Shown here one piece after another: positions 40,136 to 64,000 of a stretch of DNA of 64,000 nucleotides; position 1 is the first letter of the stretch; the number at the start of each line of letters is the position of its first letter. A program made the translations under genes and the position numbers. Location of the stretch: assembly GCF_029888045.1 (NCBI RefSeq), contig NZ_JARXRN010000028.1, positions 453,678 through 517,677 on the forward strand. Direction: 5' to 3'. The notes under the pieces were generated by a model. The model had not been told where the DNA came from, searched no databases, and was given only the letters and a program-made list of their open reading frames with translations. This DNA is from Luteimonas rhizosphaericola (GTDB lineage Bacteria > Pseudomonadota > Gammaproteobacteria > Xanthomonadales > Xanthomonadaceae).

Positions 40136-40279
40136 ATGGGCGCGTCCGCAATCCCGCATTTCCGTGCCGCCGGCGACAGCTGGCGATGGTGGCCCGCCGC
40201 CGCCGTCGCCATCGTCCGTCCGCTGTCCGAGGAAATGCCGCGTGTCCCCGCAAGACGAGTCTCCGCAAGCCGCGTTTGA
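40136..40279 (+). CDS. trpL: Candidate trp leader peptide
   Basis: This 47-codon frame starts about 20 bases after the predicted transcription start and contains the run W-R-W-W at residues 16-19, three Trp codons in four. Trp clusters of this kind are the hallmark of trp attenuators. The Trp codons fall in the 5' arm of a possible hairpin (GGCGATGG, 40182-40189, with CCATCGTC, 40209-40216), reinforced by GACAGC/GCTGTC (40175-40180 with 40222-40227) that ends next to the trpE ribosome site GAGGAA. The frame runs past the trpE start (40242) in another phase. No T-rich terminator is visible, so control might be translational. The peptide itself has no other role I can see. Confidence 0.5.
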
Positions 40280-41732
40280 GCGCCAGGCCGCCGAAGGCCA
40301 CACCCGCATCCCGGTCGTGCGCGAGGTCCTGTCGGACCTCGACACGCCGCTGTCGGTCTACCTCAAGCTCGCCGACGGCCCGCACACCTACCTGTTCGAA
40401 TCGGTCGAGGGCGGCGAGCGCTTCGGGCGCTATTCGATCATCGGCCTGCCGGCCACGCGCGTGTACGCCTTCCACGGCCACACGCTGACGGTCAGCGAGC
40501 ACGGGGAGCTCATCCAGCGGCGCGAGGTGGACGATCCCTTCGCCGAGGTCGAGCGCCTGCGGGTCGAGCATTCGGTGCCGCGCGTGCAGGGACTGCCCGG
40601 CTTCACCGGCGGCCTCGTGGGCTGGTTCGGCTTCGAGTGCATCGAGTACATCGAACCGCGGCTGCGCGCCAACGCCAACCCCGACGAACTCGGCACGCCC
40701 GACATCCTGCTGATGCTCAGCGAGGACGTGGCCGTGTTCGACAACCTCAAGGGCCGGCTGTACCTGGTGGTGCACGCCGACCCGCGCGCGCCGCAGGCGT
40801 TCGCGCGCGCGAACCGGCGGCTCGACGCACTCGCGCACCGGCTGCGCCACGGTGGCGCCGGCTATCCCGAGACATTGCGCCCCGAAGCACTGGACGAGGC
40901 CCACTTCGAATCGGGCTTCACCCGCGAGGGCTTCCTCGCCGCGGTCGCGCGCGCCAAGGACTACATCGCCGCCGGGGATGCGTTCCAGGTGGTGTTGTCG
41001 CAGCGCATGAGCGTGCCGTTCAATGCCCGCCCGGTGGACGTGTACCGCGCGCTGCGGGCGATGAACCCGTCGCCGTACATGTATTTCCTCGACGTCGGCG
41101 GCACCCAGGTGGTGGGGTCGTCGCCGGAGATCCTGGTGCGGCTGCAGGGCGGCGAGGTCACCGTGCGTCCGATCGCCGGCACCCGCCCACGCGGCGACAC
41201 GCACGAACGGGACCTGGCGCTGGAAGCGGAACTGCTGGCCGATCCGAAGGAGCGCGCCGAGCACCTGATGCTGATCGACCTCGGGCGCAACGACGTCGGC
41301 CATGTCTCCGAACCCGGCAGTGTCGCGGTCGGCGACAGCTTCGTGATCGAGCGCTACAGCCACGTCATGCACATCGTCAGCGAGGTGACCGGGCGGTTGA
41401 AGCCAGGACTGTCGTACGCCGACGTGCTGCGCGCCACGTTCCCGGCCGGCACCGTCAGCGGCGCGCCGAAGATCCGCGCGCTGGAGATCATCCGCGAGCT
41501 CGAACCGGTCAAGCGCAACGTCTACGCCGGCGCGATCGGCTACATCGGCTGGCACGGAGACGCCGACACCGCGATCGCCATCCGCACCGCGGTGATCCAG
41601 GACGGGCGCCTGCATGTGCAGGCCGGCGCCGGCATCGTCCACGACTCCGATCCGCAGACCGAGTGGGACGAAACCATGAACAAGGGCCGCGCGCTGTTCC
41701 GCGCCGTGGCGCAGGCGGCGAAGGGGTTGTGA
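40242..41732 (+). CDS. trpE: Anthranilate synthase component I
   Basis: TrpE converts chorismate to anthranilate with ammonia from TrpG. The 496-residue protein has the Trp feedback-site segment [40 protein letters not shown], the catalytic [18 protein letters not shown] and [18 protein letters not shown], and the [13 protein letters not shown] region. Start is the GTG at 40242, with GAGGAA seven bases upstream; an upstream ATG in frame at 40164 would add a Pro-rich tail overlapping the leader. The next gene begins three bases after its stop. Confidence 0.95.
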
Positions 41733-41735
41733 AGC

Positions 41736-42509
41736 GTGTCGCCGGTTGACACACCATGGGCGCACGAGCGTATTCCGCTCCACGCTGGATCCGTGTTCTC
41801 CTCGTTGGAGGTGTTCGGCCGGGGAGAGCGCGGTGAGGGCTTGCGCGTGCTGCTGCTGCCGGCGGGCGAGCAGAGTGCCCCTTGCCTCGGCGATCCGGTC
41901 GAATGCGCGCTCCGCGTACTGTCCGGTCGGCTGCAACCGTGGCGGTTCGGCTATCTCCGTGGCGAGGTCGCACCCGGCTGGTATGCGGACCTGCCGGCGG
42001 ATGCGTCCTCCCCAGAGCGTTCCGTGCTCGATGCGGCGTCCTGCTGGAGCGCGCAGGACCGGGCACCGCTGTTCCTCATGGGCTTCAGCAAGTCAGGGTT
42101 CGCGGCGCTCTCGATCCTGAGCCGGCATTGGCGCACCGGACTGTTCGCGGGCGCCGCTGCATGGGACGCGCCGCTCATGCTCTCCTCGCTGTCGAGGAAG
42201 AGCATGGTGCGCAGTTTTCGCACCGAGGCGGCTTTCGCCCGGCATCGGCTGGTCGATCGCGTCGGCGAGCTCGCGACGGCGGTGCGCACGGCAGGCGTGC
42301 GACTCGCGCTGGACGGCTTCGTCACGTGGGGCGTGCAGATGCGGGCCTTCGATCGGCTGTTGCGTGCCGAAGGCGTGCCGCGCTCCTATGCCGAACGACG
42401 CGCCGTCGCGCATGCGTGGGACCATGAGTGGATGGATCGCTGCGCGTCCGCCTTGGCGGCGCCCGTGGGCCCCGGGCACGCGAGCGGACAGTCGGAGCAG
42501 GTTCGATGA
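41736..42509 (+). CDS. Alpha/beta hydrolase-like protein within the trp operon
   Basis: I do not recognise an exact family. The 257-residue protein has GFSKSG (116-121), a variant of the GxSxG nucleophile elbow with Ser118 placed as nucleophile, followed by AALSILSRHWRTGLFAGAAAWDAPLM, and a possible catalytic His in HAWDHEW (226-232). This resembles putative esterase (PF00756-like) hydrolases and suggests deacylation of a sugar or glycan. No signal peptide is seen. GTG at 41736 comes three bases after trpE, with AAGGGG as ribosome site inside trpE. Its stop overlaps the next ATG (ATGA). Confidence 0.65.
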   Translation: MSPVDTPWAHERIPLHAGSVFSSLEVFGRGERGEGLRVLLLPAGEQSAPCLGDPVECALRVLSGRLQPWRFGYLRGEVAPGWYADLPADASSPERSVLDAASCWSAQDRAPLFLMGFSKSGFAALSILSRHWRTGLFAGAAAWDAPLMLSSLSRKSMVRSFRTEAAFARHRLVDRVGELATAVRTAGVRLALDGFVTWGVQMRAFDRLLRAEGVPRSYAERRAVAHAWDHEWMDRCASALAAPVGPGHASGQSEQVR

Positions 42510-43573
42510 AGGTCTTGGTCCTCGCCAGTTCCCTGCGGACGGCCGGAAACTTCCAGCCGGTGATCGAGCGACTCCGCGCAAGGGGCGACACGGTCGAGCT
42601 GGCGTGGGTACCGTTGGGGGGCGCGCGGGGCGAAGACCCGTCGGTGCTCGGGTTCGGGCAGGTGTACCGGGCGCATATGCATGCGCGGACGGACAGCGGG
42701 CCGTTCTGGGACGGCATCGCTACCGTCATGGAAGGCAGCTGCGACCTTGTGCTTATGGACGACATGATCCACTGGCCGGCCCAGGAGCTGGCCGCCCGCG
42801 TGCGCCGGCTGACGGACGCTCCGCCGCTGGTGGCTTTCCAGCACGGGCTGCACCAGGCATGGAACCTGATGAACCGGGAGTTCCTGGCCGACTTCTTCTT
42901 GTGTTTCGGCCGCCGGCACGTGATGAACTTCGAGCAGGCGCACTGGTCGCGCGTGCTGCCGGTCGGGCTGCCCAAGCTCGACGTGCTCCAGCCGGTGGCG
43001 CCAGGCGGCTGCGAGATCCTGTTCGTGGCGCAGTCCGCGCCGGATGCGTCGATCATCGGCCCGCTGCTGGCCGACCTCGAGCAGGCGACCGGCTTGCGGG
43101 TGAGGATCCGCGCGCATCCCGGGCACGTCGGCCGCTACGCTTCGCTGCAATCCAGGTTCGAGTGCGCCGACCCATCGGAGCCGATCGAGGAACAGATCCG
43201 GCGCGCGGCCTGGATGCTGACGACGCACAGCAGCGCCGTGCTCGAGGCCATGCGGCTGGGCATCGATGCCGTGGTCCTGCCGTCGTTCGGACTGACCGAT
43301 TTCACCTTTTATCCTGGGATTGCGGTGGATTTCCGCGCCGACAAGGTCCTGCACGCGCTGGGCGTGCTCCGACGGGACGGGGCTGCACGCCAAAGATTCA
43401 TGGACGAGCACTGTTGTGGAATGCGGCGCGACGCGACCGCGCGTGCCTTGGTGGCGATCGACGCGATCGTGGCGGGCGCTCGCGACGGCAACGGGGAAGC
43501 GCGACGTGCGCTGGTCGCGTCGATGGGCCGCGACCATCCTTTAAACGGGCTGTCGGAGGCGATACCTGCATGA
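42506..43573 (+). CDS. CDP-glycerol-transferase-like GT-B protein within the trp operon
   Basis: The 355-residue protein opens MKVLVLASSLRTAGNFQPVI, a Rossmann start, and has FQHGLHQAWN (111-120), LPVGLPKLDVL (151-161), RAHPGH (202-207) and THSSAVLEAMRLG (240-252). These follow the pattern of GT-B enzymes in the CDP-glycerol glycerophosphotransferase/KdtA-like group (QHG, G-K-D, HP, SS-EA). It is thus probably a transferase acting on a surface glycan or teichoic-like polymer; donor and acceptor are unknown. Both ends overlap neighbours by ATGA, so it is cotranslated with them. Confidence 0.6.
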   Translation: MKVLVLASSLRTAGNFQPVIERLRARGDTVELAWVPLGGARGEDPSVLGFGQVYRAHMHARTDSGPFWDGIATVMEGSCDLVLMDDMIHWPAQELAARVRRLTDAPPLVAFQHGLHQAWNLMNREFLADFFLCFGRRHVMNFEQAHWSRVLPVGLPKLDVLQPVAPGGCEILFVAQSAPDASIIGPLLADLEQATGLRVRIRAHPGHVGRYASLQSRFECADPSEPIEEQIRRAAWMLTTHSSAVLEAMRLGIDAVVLPSFGLTDFTFYPGIAVDFRADKVLHALGVLRRDGAARQRFMDEHCCGMRRDATARALVAIDAIVAGARDGNGEARRALVASMGRDHPLNGLSEAIPA

Positions 43574-44409
43574 AGGTGCTCTTCGTCAACGACACCTCGG
43601 ATTTTCACTGCGGCTCCTGGGCGGCGTGCCAGGTCATGACTAGCGCGATCAGAGCGCGTGGGCACGAGATCGTCGTGGAACGAACGCGCGCTGAGCTGGA
43701 CCTGGAGGGACTCGAGGCCTGCGACGCGGTGGTGGTGAACGGCGAGGGGACGCTGCACGGCGACAGCCCACGGTCGCTACGCATCCTCGACCTGCTGCGC
43801 CTGGCGCAGGAGCGCGGTATGGGCACCGCGCTTTGCAACGCGTCATGGTTCGCGATGGGCAACGCGCATGACGACGTTCTCGCGCGGCTCGACCGGCTGG
43901 AAGTGCGTGAATCGCTAAGTCGGGAGGTGCTGCAGGACCGGCATGGGGTCGAGCCGGTACTCACGCTGGATGCGAGCTACTTCCATCCCGCGCGCGTGGT
44001 GGCCGGACGCGAGGCCCCTGCCCGGATCCGCATGACGGATCTCTACTGGCCCGCTGCGCGCGGCTTCGCGCGACCGACCGGCGGGCCGCTGGCTAGATTT
44101 CCTTTCATCGCCATGGATCAGCTCGACTGGCAGACGATGCTCGACCAGACCGGCGCCAGCGAGGTGCTTCTGACGGGACGCCACCACGGGGTGTACGCCG
44201 CCTGTCGCGCGAGGACGCCGTTCGTGGCGCTGTCGGGCAACACACCCAAGATCGAAGGACTTGTGGCGTGGTCTGGCCTGGAACTGCCCGTGACCGGGGA
44301 TGTCGGCGCACTGGGCGGATTGCTCGCCGGCGTCCGCCGCTACCGCGCCGCGTTCGACGTCCTGTTCGACTGGATGGAGTCGCAACCACCGTGGTCGAGT
44401 CCTTTCTGA
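43570..44409 (+). CDS. Polysaccharide pyruvyl-transferase-like protein within the trp operon
   Basis: This 279-residue product matches the polysaccharide pyruvyl transferase superfamily (CsaB/WcaK type): NGEGTLHG (57-64), EVRES (111-115), TGRHHGVYAAC (202-212) and GNTPK (222-226) follow the order of that family. Members add pyruvate ketal to sugars or act as related glycan modifiers. It is shorter than many members (300-400). The ATG overlaps the previous stop (ATGA), and trpG follows after 15 bases. Together with the two genes before it, it forms a three-gene cassette of surface-glycan type inside the trp operon. Confidence 0.68.
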   Translation: MKVLFVNDTSDFHCGSWAACQVMTSAIRARGHEIVVERTRAELDLEGLEACDAVVVNGEGTLHGDSPRSLRILDLLRLAQERGMGTALCNASWFAMGNAHDDVLARLDRLEVRESLSREVLQDRHGVEPVLTLDASYFHPARVVAGREAPARIRMTDLYWPAARGFARPTGGPLARFPFIAMDQLDWQTMLDQTGASEVLLTGRHHGVYAACRARTPFVALSGNTPKIEGLVAWSGLELPVTGDVGALGGLLAGVRRYRAAFDVLFDWMESQPPWSSPF

Positions 44410-44424
44410 TACAGGAAAATTTGC

Positions 44425-45006
44425 ATGCTGTTGATGATCGACAACTACGACAGCTTCACCTGGAACCTCGTGCAGTACCTGCAGGCGCTGGGGGCCGAGG
44501 TGCGCGTGGTGCGCAACGACGAGCTGTCGGTCGCGGAGATCGAGCGGCTGGCGCCGGAGCGCATCGTGATCTCGCCCGGGCCGTGCACGCCGAACGAGGC
44601 CGGCGTGTCGGTCGAGGTGGTGCAGGCGCTGGGGGCGCGGATCCCGATCCTGGGCGTGTGCCTGGGCCACCAGGGCATCGGCCAGGCCTACGGCGGCCGG
44701 GTGGTGCGCGCGGGCCGGATCATGCACGGCAAGACCTCGCCCATCCGCCACCGCGGGCAGGGCGTGTTCGCAGGCCTGCCCGACGCCTACGAGGCCACGC
44801 GCTACCACTCGCTGGTGGTCGAGCGCGACTCGCTGCCGGAGGCGCTCGAGGTCACCGCGTGGACCGAACACGAGGGCGGCGCGTTCGAGGAGATCATGGG
44901 CCTGCGCCACCGCGAGCATCCGGTGCAGGGCGTGCAGTTCCATCCCGAATCGATCCTCACCGAGCACGGCCACGCGCTGCTGAAGAACTTTCTCGAGGGG
45001 CGATGA
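44425..45006 (+). CDS. trpG: Anthranilate synthase component II (glutamine amidotransferase)
   Basis: TrpG hydrolyses glutamine and feeds ammonia to TrpE. The 193-residue protein has the amidotransferase catalytic triad: Cys79 in GVCLGHQG, and the His/Glu in [24 protein letters not shown] at the start and [11 protein letters not shown] are typical of TrpG/PabA. The ribosome site AGGAAA lies eight bases upstream. It may also serve PabB in folate synthesis, as in many bacteria with a single copy. trpE is separated from it by the three-gene cassette. Confidence 0.95.
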
Positions 45007-57954: not shown

Positions 57955-58345
57955 AGGCCGGCGCGTTTTACCTTCCGTTTCAATGACTTGCGGTAGCGAG
58001 CGTGCCGGACCTCCGGGGCTGCCGTGCGGACGATCGTGACACCGGCCGCCTGTTTTCAGATCTGTGACTCCGCACCGAACGGGGGCATGCGCGGGGGCCT
58101 TGTCGGTCCCGGATGGGAGGAGTAGGGTCGAAGCTACCGGACGGTTGCGATGTCCAACGCCGTCCGGAACCGAGCCAGACCGACCAGATGACCGAGCCGA
58201 TCCACCACCAGCCCCCCGCCGCCGGCCGCCAGGCCCGCCGCGCCGGGCGTGCAGGTGGGCGCGCGGCTGGCCCCCGGTCTGCCCCAGAGACGACGCCCCG
58301 AGCCGCCCGCGGCCGGGGCGTTCGCATGTTCGCAGGAGGATTTCC
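57955..58345 (+). other. Gap before the YdcH-like gene with a terminal hairpin
   Basis: No credible gene is seen in 391 bases. The end of the region holds ACGCCCCG (58293-58300) pairing with CGGGGCGT (58314-58321), with a smaller stem GCCG/CGGC inside, 24 bases before the YdcH-like ATG and followed only by TTCGC. It could be an attenuator-like hairpin or the end of a small RNA. Confidence 0.4.
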
Positions 58346-58564
58346 ATGTTCGAAGGCCAACCGCAGGCGGAACTCGACAAGCTGCTCCAGGGCCACCCCG
58401 AGTTCAAGCAGCTCTACCAGCGCCACAAGGAACTCGACAAAAAGGTGCTCGACGCCGAACTCGGCGTCCTTCCCATGGACGACACCACCCTGGCCCAGAT
58501 GAAGCGCGAGAAGCTCGCCGCCAAGGACCGCCTGACCCGGCTTTACGACACGCTTCCCCACTGA
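58346..58564 (+). CDS. YdcH family small protein (DUF465)
   Basis: The 72-residue protein fits the YdcH/DUF465 family in full: HPEFKQLYQRHKELDKKVLDAE, MDDTTLAQMKREKLAAKDRL. These are helical hairpin proteins of unknown function, widespread in proteobacteria. AGGAGG lies seven bases before the ATG, one of the strongest ribosome sites in the window, which suggests high expression. It stands alone; the cysteine gene follows after 142 bases with its own GATAAT box near 58669. Confidence 0.9.
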   Translation: MFEGQPQAELDKLLQGHPEFKQLYQRHKELDKKVLDAELGVLPMDDTTLAQMKREKLAAKDRLTRLYDTLPH

Positions 58565-58706
58565 TCCGCTTTCCCGAAGTCACGGGCGGCGGCGGCCATC
58601 CTCGTCGGTCGCCGTCGCCCGTGTGCTGTCTGTCCGCGCCGCGCCAGCGGCGGACCTGTCGCCCGATGCGATAATCGCCGTTCCTCCGGCTGCATCACGA
58701 GCGCGC

Positions 58707-60083
58707 ATGACCATCCACGCCTCCGTCCTCGAGCTGATCGCCGAGACCCCGATCGTGCGCGCGCAGCGCCTGGATGCCGGCCCCTGCGAGCTGTATTTCA
58801 AGCTCGAGAGCCAGAATCCCGGCGGCTCGATCAAGGACCGGATCGGCCTGAAGATGATCGAGGCCGCCGAGGCGCGCGGCGACCTGAAGCCCGGCGCGAC
58901 CCTGGTCGAGGGCACTGCCGGCAATACCGGCATCGGCCTGGCCCTGGTCGCCCAGCAGAAGGGCTACCGCCTGGTGCTGGTGGTGCCGGACAAGATGAGC
59001 CGGGAGAAGATCTTCAACCTCAAGGCCATGGGGGCGGAGGTGGTGCTGACCCGCTCGGACGTGGCCAAGGGCCACCCCGAGTACTACCAGGACCTGGCCG
59101 AGCGCATCGCGCGCGAAACGCCGGGCGCGTACTTCGTCAACCAGTTCGGCAACCCCGACAACCCGGCCGCGCACGAGCACGGCACCGGGCCGGAGATCCT
59201 GCGCCAAATGGCGGAGGTCGGCGGCCTGGACGCGGTGGTGTTCGGCTGCGGCAGCTCCGGGACCATGACCGGCCTGTCGCGCTGTTTCGCCGAGCACGCC
59301 CCGGACGTGGAACTGGTGCTGGCCGACCCGGTGGGCTCGATCCTGGCCGAATACATCAACGACGGCGTGCTCAGCGATAAGTCCGCCAGCTGGATGGTGG
59401 AAGGCATCGGCGAGGACTTCCTGCCGTCGATCTCGGACTTCAGCCGGGTGAAGAAGGCCTACGCCATTCCCGACAAGGAGAGCTTCCTGGCGGCGCGCGA
59501 GCTGCTGCGTACCGAAGGCATCTTCGGCGGCTCCTCGACCGGCACCCTGCTGGCCGCGGCGCTGCGCTACTGCCGCGAGCAGACCGCGCCGAAGAAGGTG
59601 CTGGTGTTCGTCTGCGACACCGGCAACAAATACCTGAGCAAGCTGTACAACGACTACTGGATGCTGGACAACGGCTTCATCGAGCGCGAGCAGCACGGCG
59701 ACCTGCGCGACCTGATCCTGCGGCCATACTCCCAGCGCGATACCGTGGTGCTGGCCCCGGGCGACCTGCTGGTGACCGCCTACCAGCGCATGAAGCTCTA
59801 CGAGATCTCGCAGCTGCCGGTGATGGACGGCGACCGGATCGTCGGCATCCTCGACGAGAGCGACGTGCTGCTGCACGTCTACGGCGACGAGGCGAAATTC
59901 CGCGACCCGGTGTCCACCGCGATGGTCCGCAAGCTCGACATCCTGGACGTGAAATCGCCGGTCGAGTCGCTGCTGCCGGTGTTCGACCGCGGGCACGTGG
60001 CGATCGTGGTGGACGGGCCCCGGTTCCTGGGCCTGATCACGCGGATCGACCTGCTGAACTGGCTGCGACGCCGCGTTCACTGA
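58707..60083 (+). CDS. Cystathionine beta-synthase-type enzyme
   Basis: This PLP enzyme condenses serine and homocysteine to cystathionine (or forms cysteine in sulfide-fed reactions). The 458-residue protein has the fold-II PLP site with the Lys in NPGGSIKDRIG, GTAGNTGIGLALVAQ, and GCGSSGTMTGLSRCF, followed by two C-terminal CBS domains (about 340-458; DGDRIVGILDESDVLLHVYG and DGPRFLGLITRIDLLNWL). Together with the adjacent gamma enzyme it forms a transsulfuration pair. ATG at 58707 precedes SVLELIAETPIV. Lys-Ser and regulatory CBS domains are all intact. Confidence 0.92.
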   Translation: MTIHASVLELIAETPIVRAQRLDAGPCELYFKLESQNPGGSIKDRIGLKMIEAAEARGDLKPGATLVEGTAGNTGIGLALVAQQKGYRLVLVVPDKMSREKIFNLKAMGAEVVLTRSDVAKGHPEYYQDLAERIARETPGAYFVNQFGNPDNPAAHEHGTGPEILRQMAEVGGLDAVVFGCGSSGTMTGLSRCFAEHAPDVELVLADPVGSILAEYINDGVLSDKSASWMVEGIGEDFLPSISDFSRVKKAYAIPDKESFLAARELLRTEGIFGGSSTGTLLAAALRYCREQTAPKKVLVFVCDTGNKYLSKLYNDYWMLDNGFIEREQHGDLRDLILRPYSQRDTVVLAPGDLLVTAYQRMKLYEISQLPVMDGDRIVGILDESDVLLHVYGDEAKFRDPVSTAMVRKLDILDVKSPVESLLPVFDRGHVAIVVDGPRFLGLITRIDLLNWLRRRVH

Positions 60084-60109
60084 ACGGCCGGCGCGGACGG
60101 GGGCGATGG

Positions 60110-60115
60110 TAGAAT
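60110..60115 (+). promoter_or_regulatory. -10 box (TAGAAT) before metB
   Basis: TAGAAT lies 31 bases before the metB ATG at 60147. Transcription from here could continue into the Wzm/Wzt genes, since metB and Wzm overlap. Confidence 0.4.
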
Positions 60116-60146
60116 CCCGGCCCCGGATTCCAGTGGATTCAGCGAT

Positions 60147-61328
60147 ATGACGGACCCCCGCGAGGCGGTCGACACGGCGGCGTGGGGGCTCGGAACCAAG
60201 GCGATCCACGCCGGCCAGGCGCACGACCCCTCGACCGGGGCGGTGATGCCGCCGATCTACGCCACCAGCACCTACGCCCAGTCCAGCCCGGGCGTGCACC
60301 AGGGGTTCGAGTACTCGCGCACCCACAACCCGACCCGCTTCGCGTGGGAGCGCGGCGTCGCGGGCCTCGAAGGCGGCAACCGCGGCTTCGCGTTCGCTTC
60401 GGGCATGGCGGCCACCGCCACGCTACTGGAACTGCTGGACAGTGGCGACCACGTCGTGGCGATGGACGACCTGTACGGCGGCAGCTTCCGCCTGTTCGAG
60501 CGGGTCCGCCGCCGCAGCGCGGGGCTGGACTTCAGCTACGTCGACATGACCGACCTGGCCGCGTTCGAGGCCGCGCTCACGCCGAAGACGAAGCTGGTGT
60601 GGATCGAGACCCCGACCAACCCGCTGCTCAAGATCGTCGACATCGCCGCGGTGGCCGACATCGCCCATCGCCATGGCGCGAAGGTGGTGGTCGACAACAC
60701 GTTCGCCTCGCCCATGCTGCAGCGGCCGCTCGAGCACGGCGCCGACATCGTGATGCATTCTGCGACCAAGTACCTCAACGGGCACTCGGACATGGTGGGC
60801 GGGATCGCCGTGGTCGGCGACGACGAGGCGCTCGCGGAGCAGGTGGCGTTCCTGCAGAACTCCTGCGGCGCCGTGCAGGGCCCGTTCGACAGCTTCCTCG
60901 CCCTGCGCGGGCTCAAGACCCTGCACCTGCGCATGAAGGCCCACTGCGAGAACGCGCAGGCGTTGGCCGAATTCCTGCAGGCGCACGACGCGGTAGAGGG
61001 CGTGATCTACCCGGGCCTGCCTTCGCATCGGCAGCACGAACTCGCGAAGCGGCAGATGGACGGCTTCGGCGGCATCGTCTCGGTGCGCCTCAAGGGCGGT
61101 TTCGAGGCCGCGAAGCGCTTCTGCGAACGCACCCGGCTGTTCACCCTGGCCGAATCGCTCGGCGGCGTGGAGAGCCTGGTCAACCACCCGGCGGTGATGA
61201 CGCATGCGTCGATCCCCCCAGAGAACCGCGCGCGCCTCGGCATCGATGACGGGCTGGTGCGGTTGAGTGTGGGGGTGGAGGGTCTGGATGACCTTCGAGC
61301 CGATCTCGGACAGGCACTTGCCGCATGA
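60147..61328 (+). CDS. metB: Cystathionine gamma-synthase/lyase
   Basis: The 393-residue PLP enzyme of the Cys/Met family has GLGTKAIHAGQAHDPSTGAV, the substrate-phosphate-binding YSRTHNPTRFAWE, and the PLP-Lys motif SATKYLNGHSDMVGG, plus the closing SLGGVESLVNHPAVMTHASI. Either gamma-synthase or gamma-lyase activity is possible; the neighbour with CBS domains favours reverse transsulfuration. Its stop overlaps the Wzm start (ATGA), so it is joined to the O-antigen transporter operon. In Xanthomonas this gene borders the LPS cluster. Confidence 0.93.
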   Translation: MTDPREAVDTAAWGLGTKAIHAGQAHDPSTGAVMPPIYATSTYAQSSPGVHQGFEYSRTHNPTRFAWERGVAGLEGGNRGFAFASGMAATATLLELLDSGDHVVAMDDLYGGSFRLFERVRRRSAGLDFSYVDMTDLAAFEAALTPKTKLVWIETPTNPLLKIVDIAAVADIAHRHGAKVVVDNTFASPMLQRPLEHGADIVMHSATKYLNGHSDMVGGIAVVGDDEALAEQVAFLQNSCGAVQGPFDSFLALRGLKTLHLRMKAHCENAQALAEFLQAHDAVEGVIYPGLPSHRQHELAKRQMDGFGGIVSVRLKGGFEAAKRFCERTRLFTLAESLGGVESLVNHPAVMTHASIPPENRARLGIDDGLVRLSVGVEGLDDLRADLGQALAA

Positions 61329-62116
61329 GCCGTTCGCTATTCGAGGATTACCGTAACAGCTTGCGACATCCGGAGTTCTGGGCGTATTCCAGCTGGCTCG
61401 ACATCGCGACACGGCACCGGCGGACACGGCTCGGCTTCCTGTGGTTCCTTGTGCCGACGATCGCCTTCCTGCTGGTGCTGGGCAACGTCTATTCCCAGCT
61501 GATGGGCTACCCGCGCGAGGAATACCTGCCGTACCTGGGCGTGGGATTCGTGGTATGGCGGTTCATGCTCCAGATCGTGAACGAGGCTGTGGCCGCGATG
61601 ACCTCGCACAAGGCGTTCATCATGGACGGCCGTACACGGCTGACCGATTTCGTGCTCCGCTCCTTCGCGAAGGCCGCGTACATGCTGCTGTTCGGCATGA
61701 TCGTCGTGATGGGCATCCTGATGTGGTCTCCATCGATGCATGTGTACAACGTGCTGACGCTGGTGGCGACCTTGCCGATCCTGCTGCTCAACCTGTCCTG
61801 GATCGCCGTCTGCCTGGCCTTGCTGGGCGCCAGGTTCCGCGACATGCACGAGATCATGGGCACGATCCTCATCGTCGCTTTCCTGATCACACCTGTCCTC
61901 TGGACCGTTGAGCGTTTCCCTCCCGACACGCTGCGCGGCACCCTCGTGCGCCTCAACCCCGCCTTCCACATGATCGACGTGGTCCGCGCCCCGGTTCTGG
62001 GGCAGATGCCCGAAGCGACGTCGTTCGTGTTCGTGGGTGTCCTCGCGCTGGTGGGGTGGCCGGTCGCAGCGCTGCTGTACCGCCGCTATGCCCGTTTCGT
62101 TCCGATCTGGGTCTGA
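61325..62116 (+). CDS. wzm: Polysaccharide ABC-transporter permease (Wzm-like)
   Basis: The 263-residue membrane protein has six hydrophobic helices and the ABC-2 pattern: an N-terminal amphipathic helix, YLGVGFVVWRFMLQIVNEAV, LVATLPILLLNLSWIAVCLALLGARFRDM and ITPVLWTVERFP, followed by LNPAFHMIDVVRAPVLG. This family exports O-antigen or other undecaprenyl-linked glycans. It overlaps metB by four bases, and the ATPase gene starts two bases after its stop. The drop in GC here marks the start of the polysaccharide locus. Confidence 0.92.
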   Translation: MSRSLFEDYRNSLRHPEFWAYSSWLDIATRHRRTRLGFLWFLVPTIAFLLVLGNVYSQLMGYPREEYLPYLGVGFVVWRFMLQIVNEAVAAMTSHKAFIMDGRTRLTDFVLRSFAKAAYMLLFGMIVVMGILMWSPSMHVYNVLTLVATLPILLLNLSWIAVCLALLGARFRDMHEIMGTILIVAFLITPVLWTVERFPPDTLRGTLVRLNPAFHMIDVVRAPVLGQMPEATSFVFVGVLALVGWPVAALLYRRYARFVPIWV

Positions 62117-62118
62117 CG

Positions 62119-62898
62119 ATGAGCAGCCACATCATCGCGAGCGACCTGGGGCTCGACATTCCCCATTTCCTGCAGGACGTGCCGATCCAGCAGTCGCTGT
62201 ACACGACGCTGGTGCGGGCGCCGTTCACCCGTCCCCGGCGCGAATACAGGACGCTCCTGTCCGGTCTCAGTTTCGAGATCCGGCAGGGGGAGCGCGTCGC
62301 GATCCTCGGGCGCAACGGCGCGGGGAAGACGACGCTGCTCCGGGTCCTGACGGGCGCTTTCGAACCGACGCACGGCTCGCTCGACATCCAGGGCTCCCGG
62401 CAGGCATTGCTCAACCTGGGCCTGGGCTTCAACTCCGAGGCGACGGTGCAGGAGAACATCTACCTGCGTGCCATCGCGATGGGAATGCGCGGCGCCGAGA
62501 TCCGCGACGTGGTCGTGCCGGTACTCGAATTCTCCGAACTGGCGGACGTCGCCAACCACCGGCTGGCGACGCTGTCGTCCGGCCAGCGCATGCGGCTTGG
62601 ATTCGCGATCTCGACCGCGGTCCAGCACGACATCATGCTGCTGGACGAATGGATCGGCGCCGGCGACGCGGGATTCGTGGAGAAGGCGAAGCAACGCATG
62701 ACCAGCCGGGTGGACGGGAGCAAGATCGTGGTGCTCGCCAGCCACAATTTCCCCCTGCTGCGCAAGGTGTGCACCCGCGGCATCGTCATCGATCACGGCC
62801 GCATGGTGTATGCCGGCGAGATCGAGGACTCGATCAAGGAATACAAGAAGATCTACCAGGTCGACCCTGTGTATATCGCCAACAAGACGGGCCAATGA
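62119..62898 (+). CDS. wzt: Polysaccharide ABC-transporter ATPase (Wzt-like)
   Basis: The 259-residue protein has Walker A LGRNGAGKTTLLRVL, the Q-loop/INGRGSY-type signature LSSGQRMRLGFAI and Walker B IMLLDEWIGAGDAGF with the DEW variant typical of glycan exporters. It lacks the C-terminal carbohydrate-binding domain of O-antigen Wzt proteins, so it resembles KpsT/TagH-type ATPases. ATG at 62119 is two bases after the wzm stop; upstream frames lie inside wzm. Together with Wzm it forms the exporter. Confidence 0.92.
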   Translation: MSSHIIASDLGLDIPHFLQDVPIQQSLYTTLVRAPFTRPRREYRTLLSGLSFEIRQGERVAILGRNGAGKTTLLRVLTGAFEPTHGSLDIQGSRQALLNLGLGFNSEATVQENIYLRAIAMGMRGAEIRDVVVPVLEFSELADVANHRLATLSSGQRMRLGFAISTAVQHDIMLLDEWIGAGDAGFVEKAKQRMTSRVDGSKIVVLASHNFPLLRKVCTRGIVIDHGRMVYAGEIEDSIKEYKKIYQVDPVYIANKTGQ

Positions 62899-62920
62899 CA
62901 GTCAAGGAGTTCCCCAGTTC

Positions 62921-64000
62921 ATGACTCTAGGCAAGAAGCGGATCCTCTGCGTCGCCGGAACCCGGCCGGAGGCCATCAAGATGGCGCCGGTCATCCTCGC
63001 GTTGCGGGAGGCGCCATGGGCGGAGGTACGCGTGCTGGCCACCGCGCAGCACCGGCAGATGCTCGACCAGGTGATGCAGGTGTTCGGGATCAGCCCCGAC
63101 ATTGACCTGGACATCATGCGTCCCAATCAGTCGTTGCCGGAGCTGACGGCCCGGCTGCTGGCCGAACTCGACACCGTGCTGGCGAGCGAGCAGCCCGACG
63201 TGGTGCTGGTGCAGGGCGACACGACCACAGTCATGGCGACCGCGATGGCGGCATTCTATCGCCGCATCGACGTCGGCCACGTCGAGGCGGGCCTGCGGAC
63301 GGGGGACCTCCAGAATCCGTTCCCCGAGGAGATGAACCGCGTGGTGGCCGGACGCCTCTCGCGCTGGCACTTCGCGCCAACGGAGGGCTCGCGGCAGAAC
63401 CTGCTGCGGGAAGGGTTCGATCCGACGGCGATCCACGTCACCGGGAACACGGTGATCGATGCGCTGAAGAACGTCGTGGCGCGGGATCTTCCGCGACCGG
63501 AGGGCATCGATCCCGGGAAGCGGCTGGTGCTGGTGACCGCGCATCGCCGCGAAAACTTCGGTGAGCCGTTCCGGGAAGTGTGTCGCGCGGTGCGGGAGAT
63601 CGCCGACCGGCACGAGGACATCAACATCCTGTATCCGGTGCATCCGAATCCGAACGTCCACGACGTGGCGCATGCGACCTTGGGCGACCATCCGCGCATC
63701 CGTCTCTGCAGCCCGCTGGACTACCTTCCGTTCGTTTCCGCGATGAAGCACGCCGACCTCGTGCTCACCGACTCCGGCGGAGTGCAGGAGGAGGCGCCGG
63801 CGCTGGCCAAGCCCGTGCTGGTGATGCGCCGGGAGACCGAGCGTCCCGAGGCGGTGGCGGAAGGCGTCGTGAAGCTGGTCGGGACGGATTTCGACTCGAT
63901 CGTCGGCGAAGCGGACCGGCTGCTTCGCGATCCCGATGCGTACCGGGCGATGGCCAAGGGCGTCTCGCCGTACGGCGACGGCCTCGCGGCATCGCGGATC
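62921..64000 (+). CDS. wecB: UDP-N-acetylglucosamine 2-epimerase (partial at window end)
   Basis: This gene runs off the right edge, so only 360 residues are seen. It makes UDP-ManNAc from UDP-GlcNAc for surface glycans. Family motifs are GTRPEAIKMAPVILAL, GDTTTVMA, HVEAGLRTGDLQNPFPEE, TAHRRENFGEPF, VHPNPNVHD and DSGGVQEEAP. The ATG at 62921 has AAGGAG about 16 bases upstream inside the Wzt stop region; spacing is long but no better start exists. It follows Wzt by 22 bases, in the same operon. Truncation is from the window end, not a mutation. Confidence 0.92.
   Translation, partial: MTLGKKRILCVAGTRPEAIKMAPVILALREAPWAEVRVLATAQHRQMLDQVMQVFGISPDIDLDIMRPNQSLPELTARLLAELDTVLASEQPDVVLVQGDTTTVMATAMAAFYRRIDVGHVEAGLRTGDLQNPFPEEMNRVVAGRLSRWHFAPTEGSRQNLLREGFDPTAIHVTGNTVIDALKNVVARDLPRPEGIDPGKRLVLVTAHRRENFGEPFREVCRAVREIADRHEDINILYPVHPNPNVHDVAHATLGDHPRIRLCSPLDYLPFVSAMKHADLVLTDSGGVQEEAPALAKPVLVMRRETERPEAVAEGVVKLVGTDFDSIVGEADRLLRDPDAYRAMAKGVSPYGDGLAASRI

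Follow-up and report, generated by a model that had tools for sequence, protein, structure and literature searches.

A three-gene, glycan-type cassette at a trpE–trpG insertion hotspot in Luteimonas rhizosphaericola

Why should three genes with no part in tryptophan synthesis lie inside a tryptophan operon? The question is raised by a 64,000-nucleotide stretch of the Luteimonas rhizosphaericola genome (contig NZ_JARXRN010000028.1, positions 453,678 to 517,677; hereafter the window), in which trpE and trpG are separated by 2,692 bases filled by three overlapping, co-directional genes, P1, P2 and P3. The answer that we favour, and consider fairly likely, is that an insertion hotspot here holds a foreign three-gene glycan cassette, imported together with trpG by homologous recombination and probably co-transcribed with the operon. 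The cassette would then lie inside trp because the junction is an insertion hotspot across the family, rather than because of a partnership between glycan and tryptophan.

A cassette fitted between trpE and trpG

The genes at the junction are as follows (positions in the window).

40242..41732, forward strand: trpE (listed open reading frame (ORF) 40164-41732); located in relatives by tblastn
41736..42509, forward strand: P1, GTG start; esterase-like alpha/beta hydrolase with the elbow GFSKSG and HAWD further on
42506..43573, forward strand: P2, ATG start; probable GT-B glycosyltransferase (DUF6716-like; PF20471 below cut-off)
43570..44409, forward strand: P3, ATG start; polysaccharide pyruvyl-transferase family protein (PF04230)
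44413..44416, forward strand: AGGA, probable trpG ribosome-binding site, read from the sequence between P3 and the trpG start
44425..45006, forward strand: trpG; at 25 of 29 informative sites it carries the allele of L040 and L042, not that of the sister species

The trpE stop at 41732 falls 3 bases before P1, ATGA overlaps join P1 to P2 and P2 to P3, and 15 bases separate P3 from the trpG start at 44425, just as an initial annotation of the window had described. That annotation had also called the cassette poorer in guanine plus cytosine (GC) than the trp genes, which holds: the insert has 68.4% GC against 71.0% in the surrounding 9-kb stretch, and GC at third codon positions (GC3) is 0.81–0.86 in P1–P3 against 0.92 in trpE and 0.96 in trpG. 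Its statement that none of the three belongs to tryptophan synthesis is likewise borne out. For trpE itself, the GTG at 40242 is a likelier start than 40164 because a conserved ribosome-binding site precedes it.

The trpE–trpG junction is an insertion hotspot

To place the cassette in context, we compared the junction across the genus and the family. In the genus, 52 genomes were searched, of which 51 have a full trpG; stretches were fetched for the 50 besides the window, two of them without trpE, giving 49 loci with the window included. The trpE–trpG gap is 1 base in 5 of these, 37–112 bases in 10 and more than 500 bases in 34, with a maximum of 11,600. Neighbouring trp junctions vary less, though they are not inert: the largest gaps are 369 bases between the upstream gene and trpE (46 measured; rough values, extrapolated to query ends), 945 between trpG and trpD (51 measured; rough, the trpD query having about 17 extra upstream residues) and 629 between trpD and trpC (35 measured and 16 not located within the fetched stretch; also rough). 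A family sample of 149 genomes, with trpG in 140, trpE in 141 and both in 136, yielded 111 gaps (six of them from the genus) once the 25 cases split over contigs were set aside; 21 are shorter than 20 bases, 85 exceed 500 bases and 14 exceed 10 kb, the longest being 113,481 bases.

The cargo is diverse. Twenty representatives were run through Pfam, four of them without a family, and the others include a SIMPL/DUF541 protein, a methyltransferase, a reverse-strand MFS transporter, an FAD oxidoreductase, a beta-helix protein, a histidine kinase, a GGDEF protein and a beta-eliminating lyase. HsdR occurs in L113, and the 11.6-kb gap of L067 (genome G207) has a HipA-like gene plus a complete Wadjet defence set, JetA-D. 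The junction is thus a general insertion hotspot in genus and family, with unrelated cargo. Acyltransferase-3/SGNH genes are of a kind known to decorate glycans. One lies at the junction in L143 (G029), where Pfam was run, and ORFs of the same sequence cluster occur in L132 (G043, on the opposite strand) and L137 (G098), so that another gene that may decorate glycans sits at trpE–trpG elsewhere in the family.

Five related genomes (L078, L079, L080, L083 and L084) have a common block between trpE and trpG, mostly on the opposite strand. One of its genes, about 838 residues long, looks like an oxidase subunit (by reading, with no family search); in L074, which is related to the five, the gap is 1 base.

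In close relatives of the window the site is empty or differently filled: the nearest, L043 and L046, have a 1-base trpE–trpG gap, and in L045, which follows them in relatedness, a SIMPL gene lies there. The cargo of the window sits exactly between trpE and trpG.

The cassette is confined to one sampled genome

The set P1–P3 was found in no other sampled genome, with P2 and P3 searched in 198 genomes of the family and P1 and P2 in 369 genomes of the class. P2 has hits in 2 of the 198, its own genome and one weak partial match (E = 8.8e-4), and P3 in 5: its own, G021 at 38% identity, G196 in pieces (E = 6.3e-10) and two weak ones. P1 and P2 each occur in 1 of the 369 class genomes, their own. 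We also compared them with 282 ORFs from 94 trpE–trpG stretches, made up of 76 whole gaps (34 from the genus, including the window, and 42 from the family) and 18 four-kb end pieces of nine large gaps. P1 and P3 resemble none of these ORFs (best E = 1.6 and 0.17, respectively), and P2 matches itself only (next E = 1.4).

Wider collections gave little. A search of genome contigs returned no relatives of P2 or P3 and a search of viral contigs none of P3; a plasmid collection yielded none of P2 or P3 and, for P1, only Streptomyces relatives; a phage collection yielded no relatives of any of the three. The initial annotation had proposed a glycan unit dedicated to the trp operon. This is not supported, the set having been seen in one genome only among those searched and the junction being a general hotspot with many cargo types.

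The trpG allele suggests the route of entry

In a tree of TrpE and TrpG, the window's closest partners are L043 and L046 (support 99/95), followed by L045 (100/97). Segment by segment, the nearest sequence to the window's trpE is L043 or L046 throughout, and to its trpD L045 or L043, except at 501-750. In trpG, positions 1-150 are nearest to L039, L047, L040, L042 and L041, and positions 151-300 to L040, L042, L041, L044 and L039, where L043 and L046 come 10th to 13th; positions 451-579 are nearest to L058, L040 and L039.

To quantify this, we took the sites at which the sisters L043 and L046 agree and differ from the shared allele of L040 and L042, and scored the window as sister:other. The counts are 34:10 in trpE, 2:18 in trpG 1-300, 2:7 in trpG 301-579 and 23:7 in trpD. 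Fisher's test against trpE plus trpD gives P = 5.9e-8 for trpG 1-300 and 4.1e-9 for the whole of trpG, and with other pairs whole-trpG values of 1.2e-8 (L040/L039), 1.3e-6 (L040/L041) and 7.5e-13 (L039/L042). All of these P values are too small, because the test takes no account of linkage between sites and the pairs were chosen with the ranks already known. With L039/L042 the second half of trpG scores 7:8. When L045 was made the focus as a control, its sister counts were 16:3 and 7:1 in trpG and 26:3 in trpD.

The window's trpG thus carries mostly alleles of other lineages, whereas its trpE and trpD follow the sister species. Given a trpG of other-lineage type between sister-type trpE and trpD, the cassette and trpG probably arrived in one homologous-recombination tract, clearest in the first half of trpG.

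P1, P2 and P3 have the look of glycan genes

P3 passes the Pfam model for polysaccharide pyruvyl-transferases (PF04230; 31.4 bits, gathering cut-off 25.3), as the initial annotation had expected. It is not a CsaB equivalog, since it scores 17.6 on the CsaB model against a cut-off of 213.1. Its best relative in the family, in G021 (37–38% identity), also passes PF04230 (28.1 against 25.3) and adjoins a UDP-N-acetylglucosamine (UDP-GlcNAc) 2-epimerase-like gene in what looks like a surface-glycan cluster; the ORFs there were drawn by GC frame alone, some merged ones not being real, and its gene names (2-epimerase, sugar dehydrogenase, acyltransferase, Wzt-like ATPase) are a reading of the sequence with no family search. 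Transfer of pyruvate to a sugar, as a ketal, is what the family would predict for P3.

P2 had been likened to a CDP-glycerol transferase, and nothing was found for it beyond a match to PF20471 (DUF6716, putative glycosyltransferase; E = 1.2e-5) that, at 24.9 bits, falls below the cut-off of 27 and aligns only 42 residues. P1, described as hydrolase-like, has no Pfam match of its own, but the description survives as esterase-like through its relatives. Residues 107–233 or thereabouts share 34–36% identity with three Streptomyces plasmid proteins, which score 24.0 (L157), 20.5 (L156) and 19.9 (L155) on the Esterase model PF00756 (cut-off 22; only L157 passes), and the four-row alignment of P1 with these relatives shows no variation at S118 (within GFSKSG), D144 or H226. 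On the two annotated Streptomyces plasmids, the P1 relative comes after genes for a sugar-phosphate nucleotidyltransferase and SIS and SDR proteins.

PDB sequence searches returned nothing usable, with designed Tet4 variants for P3 (2e-6 and 4e-6) and, for P1 and P2, rows all with E > 0.2; PADLOC gave no match for P1–P3. A glycan role for the cassette, as first proposed, is likely, on the strength of the P3 family and the gene context of the P3 and P1 relatives in glycan or sugar clusters, and is best called plausible but unproven. Most likely, the esterase-like hydrolase, probable glycosyltransferase and pyruvyl-transferase would together add or modify a surface or secreted glycan.

On the Streptomyces plasmids, the regions at 995-6444 of L155 and 953-6447 of L156 each carry an SDR/SIS/RraA-like/DUF2332/nucleotidyltransferase/P1-like hydrolase cassette behind an XRE gene.

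A conserved leader precedes trpE

The region upstream of trpE contains three further features.

40136..40279, forward strand: probable trp leader ORF with the codons TGG CGA TGG TGG (WRWW), overlapping the trpE start
40156..40163, forward strand: left arm of a stem, GCATTTCC, pairing with the trpE ribosome-binding site
40231..40238, forward strand: right arm of the stem, GGAAATGC, containing the trpE Shine-Dalgarno sequence

A leader ORF with W-x-W or WRWW lies upstream of trpE in 33 of the 49 genus loci (that of L085 looks spurious) and is absent from 16; as a chance level, shuffling the window's upstream region by single bases gave one in 12 of 200 cases. In four relatives the leader is a 15–16-residue peptide ending in WRW-stop. 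With references for 27 of the 33, we aligned 23 leaders, leaving out the four short WRW-stop types. The 8-pair stem GCATTTCC/GGAAATGC is perfect (8/8 pairs) in 18 of the 23, and 94.7% of stem cells are paired, against 41–65% when the stem is slid. Covariation is slight, with two-sided changes at 3 pairs, a level that 34 of 500 shuffles reach. Rfam offered no fitting family for the leader, its sole row being unrelated and far below cut-off.

In ribosome-mediated trp leaders of the trpL type, trpE is preceded by a short ORF in which Trp codons cluster. The window's leader shares this arrangement. Unlike trpL-type attenuators, it has no intrinsic terminator between leader and trpE by a simple consensus scan of the window; here the conserved stem spans the ribosome-binding site of trpE. 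Tryptophan may affect the transcript, perhaps at translation. TrpR is encoded in the genome; CTAG half-sites, the sole feature of a TrpR site that was sought, do not occur before trpE in the window.

The layout would permit co-transcription of the cassette with trpE, downstream of the Trp-codon leader and with coupled, co-directional starts. Between 39900 and 46400, a weak scan found no sigma-70-like promoter (shuffles give 0.5 by chance), and a simple, likewise weak consensus scan placed the sole terminator-like site inside trpD (shuffles give 2.1). The tight layout favours a possible coregulation, as does the conserved Trp-codon leader, whose stem takes in the ribosome-binding site of trpE. 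The AAGGGG site at the end of trpE, which serves trpG in relatives with an empty site, may serve P1 here, and trpG would stay expressed through its own ribosome-binding site; L043 and L046, with their 1-base gap, have no spacer like the AGGA-bearing one ahead of trpG.

How the cassette came to lie here

One alternative is a functional coupling of the cassette to tryptophan, in which selection has kept it behind the leader so that glycan modification would track the supply of tryptophan. The WRWW ORF with its stem, the 3-base and ATGA junctions, the lack of a between-gene terminator in the scan and the presence of TrpR in the genome all fit such coupling. The same leader, however, precedes trpE in relatives without an insert (L043 and L046) or with other cargo; the set was found in one genome only; and cargo at the site is diverse, lying on the opposite strand in nine short genus inserts (L039, L042, L047, L050, L057, L060, L069, L077 and L086). 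We regard coupling as unlikely. An ancestral cassette, lost in relatives, would suit a locus at which genes are frequently gained and lost within the genus, but is slightly less likely still: in the nearest relatives, L043 and L046, trpE meets trpG cleanly with 1 base between, L045 has a SIMPL gene, no strong match at this place appeared for P2 and P3 in the 198 family genomes or for P1 and P2 in the 369 class genomes, and trpG shows an allele switch.

Recombinase-driven, site-specific integration at the trpG 5' end has one possible precedent in L067 (G207), where a copy of that end, ATGCTGTTGATGATCGACAAC, stands right after trpE, with a trpG start at the far side of the insert and Wadjet between. 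In the window the gap contains no duplicated trpG 5' end and Pfam finds no integrase among the three genes, and elsewhere the only other candidate is a 16-of-18 match on the trpG side of L097, leaving L067 as the sole clear duplicate; we think this route highly improbable. In the duplicate scan, genus gaps longer than 100 bases were covered over their first 3,000 and last 800 bases, and family stretches over at most 4,200 bases each, so that copies deep in a long gap could escape it. The same scan led us to discard a general att site at trpG, since a clear duplicate appeared in L067 only, with parts of long gaps outside the scan. The 11.6-kb gap of L067 does resemble an element inserted site-specifically in trpG.

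Import by homologous recombination, in a single tract bringing the cassette and replacing trpG, is the reading that we retain, although several points beside the P values noted above weigh against it. Sister L043 comes first in trpG 301-450; with L040/L041 the second half of trpG scores 6:6; in trpD 501-750, L048 ties with L045 and L043 is only 7th of 49; and trpE of the control focus L045, at 23:19, is not clearly sister-like. No donor is known, L039, L040 and L042 being without this cassette, and trpG is at best 93–95% identical to those three by segment. The polarity may also be reversed, trpG having possibly been replaced in the sisters. Occasional inserts occur at other trp junctions, and with the set in one genome only, selection on the cassette is not measurable. 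On the side of function, neither P1 nor P2 passes a Pfam model by itself, and their single-sequence folds failed, with mean predicted local distance difference test (pLDDT) scores of 39.2 and 39.1.

Relation to known trpE–trpG loci

In Pseudomonas, trpE–trpG is a published pyocin hotspot (PMC13075995, PMC10598620); bacteriocin cargo genes are described in a trpE/trpG-integrated tailocin cluster (PMC5277000), and PMC8319346, which also examined trpE–trpG, reports its isolates to be without tailocin genes. The pyocin/tailocin locus thus shares its junction with the window's cassette. The window's cargo differs in being three glycan-type genes with no phage-collection relatives, not derived from phage tails, and in being co-directional and overlapped with the operon, in another bacterial family. 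P3 and its G021 relative belong by score to a known family, PF04230, and P3 is unlike CsaB. For the window's own family, no title on the trpE–trpG junction was among the literature matches listed, from a search covering few subscription journals.

Throughout a bacterial family, a textbook biosynthetic operon is kept open at a single junction, where defence systems, acyltransferases and glycan genes are found, and the Pseudomonas pyocin hotspot may be one case of a wider hotspot. The linked trpG allele offers a testable mechanism, recombination through a flanking core gene, and the leader makes tryptophan control of passenger genes easy to ask about. A bolder picture, in which a mobile glycan cassette sits under a tryptophan leader that hides the ribosome-binding site, tryptophan tunes the surface glycan, and trpE–trpG is a family-wide exchange site whose cargo travels with trpG alleles, is speculative and in our judgement improbable.

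A separate glycan cluster in the window

The window has a glycan cluster of its own near 61.3 kb. Derivation of the cassette from it was considered but not supported: the ORFs of 57991-64000 and of 20 kb beyond include no match to P1, P2 or P3, and each of the three proteins matches its own genome just once. Within the cluster, for the genes at 61325-62898, Wzm/Wzt-like by reading, matches to a stretch of the sister G211 reach only 51% and 61%, whereas the metB-like gene preceding them matches G211 at 95% (positions in G211 were not compared). This cluster looks as if it had itself been exchanged.

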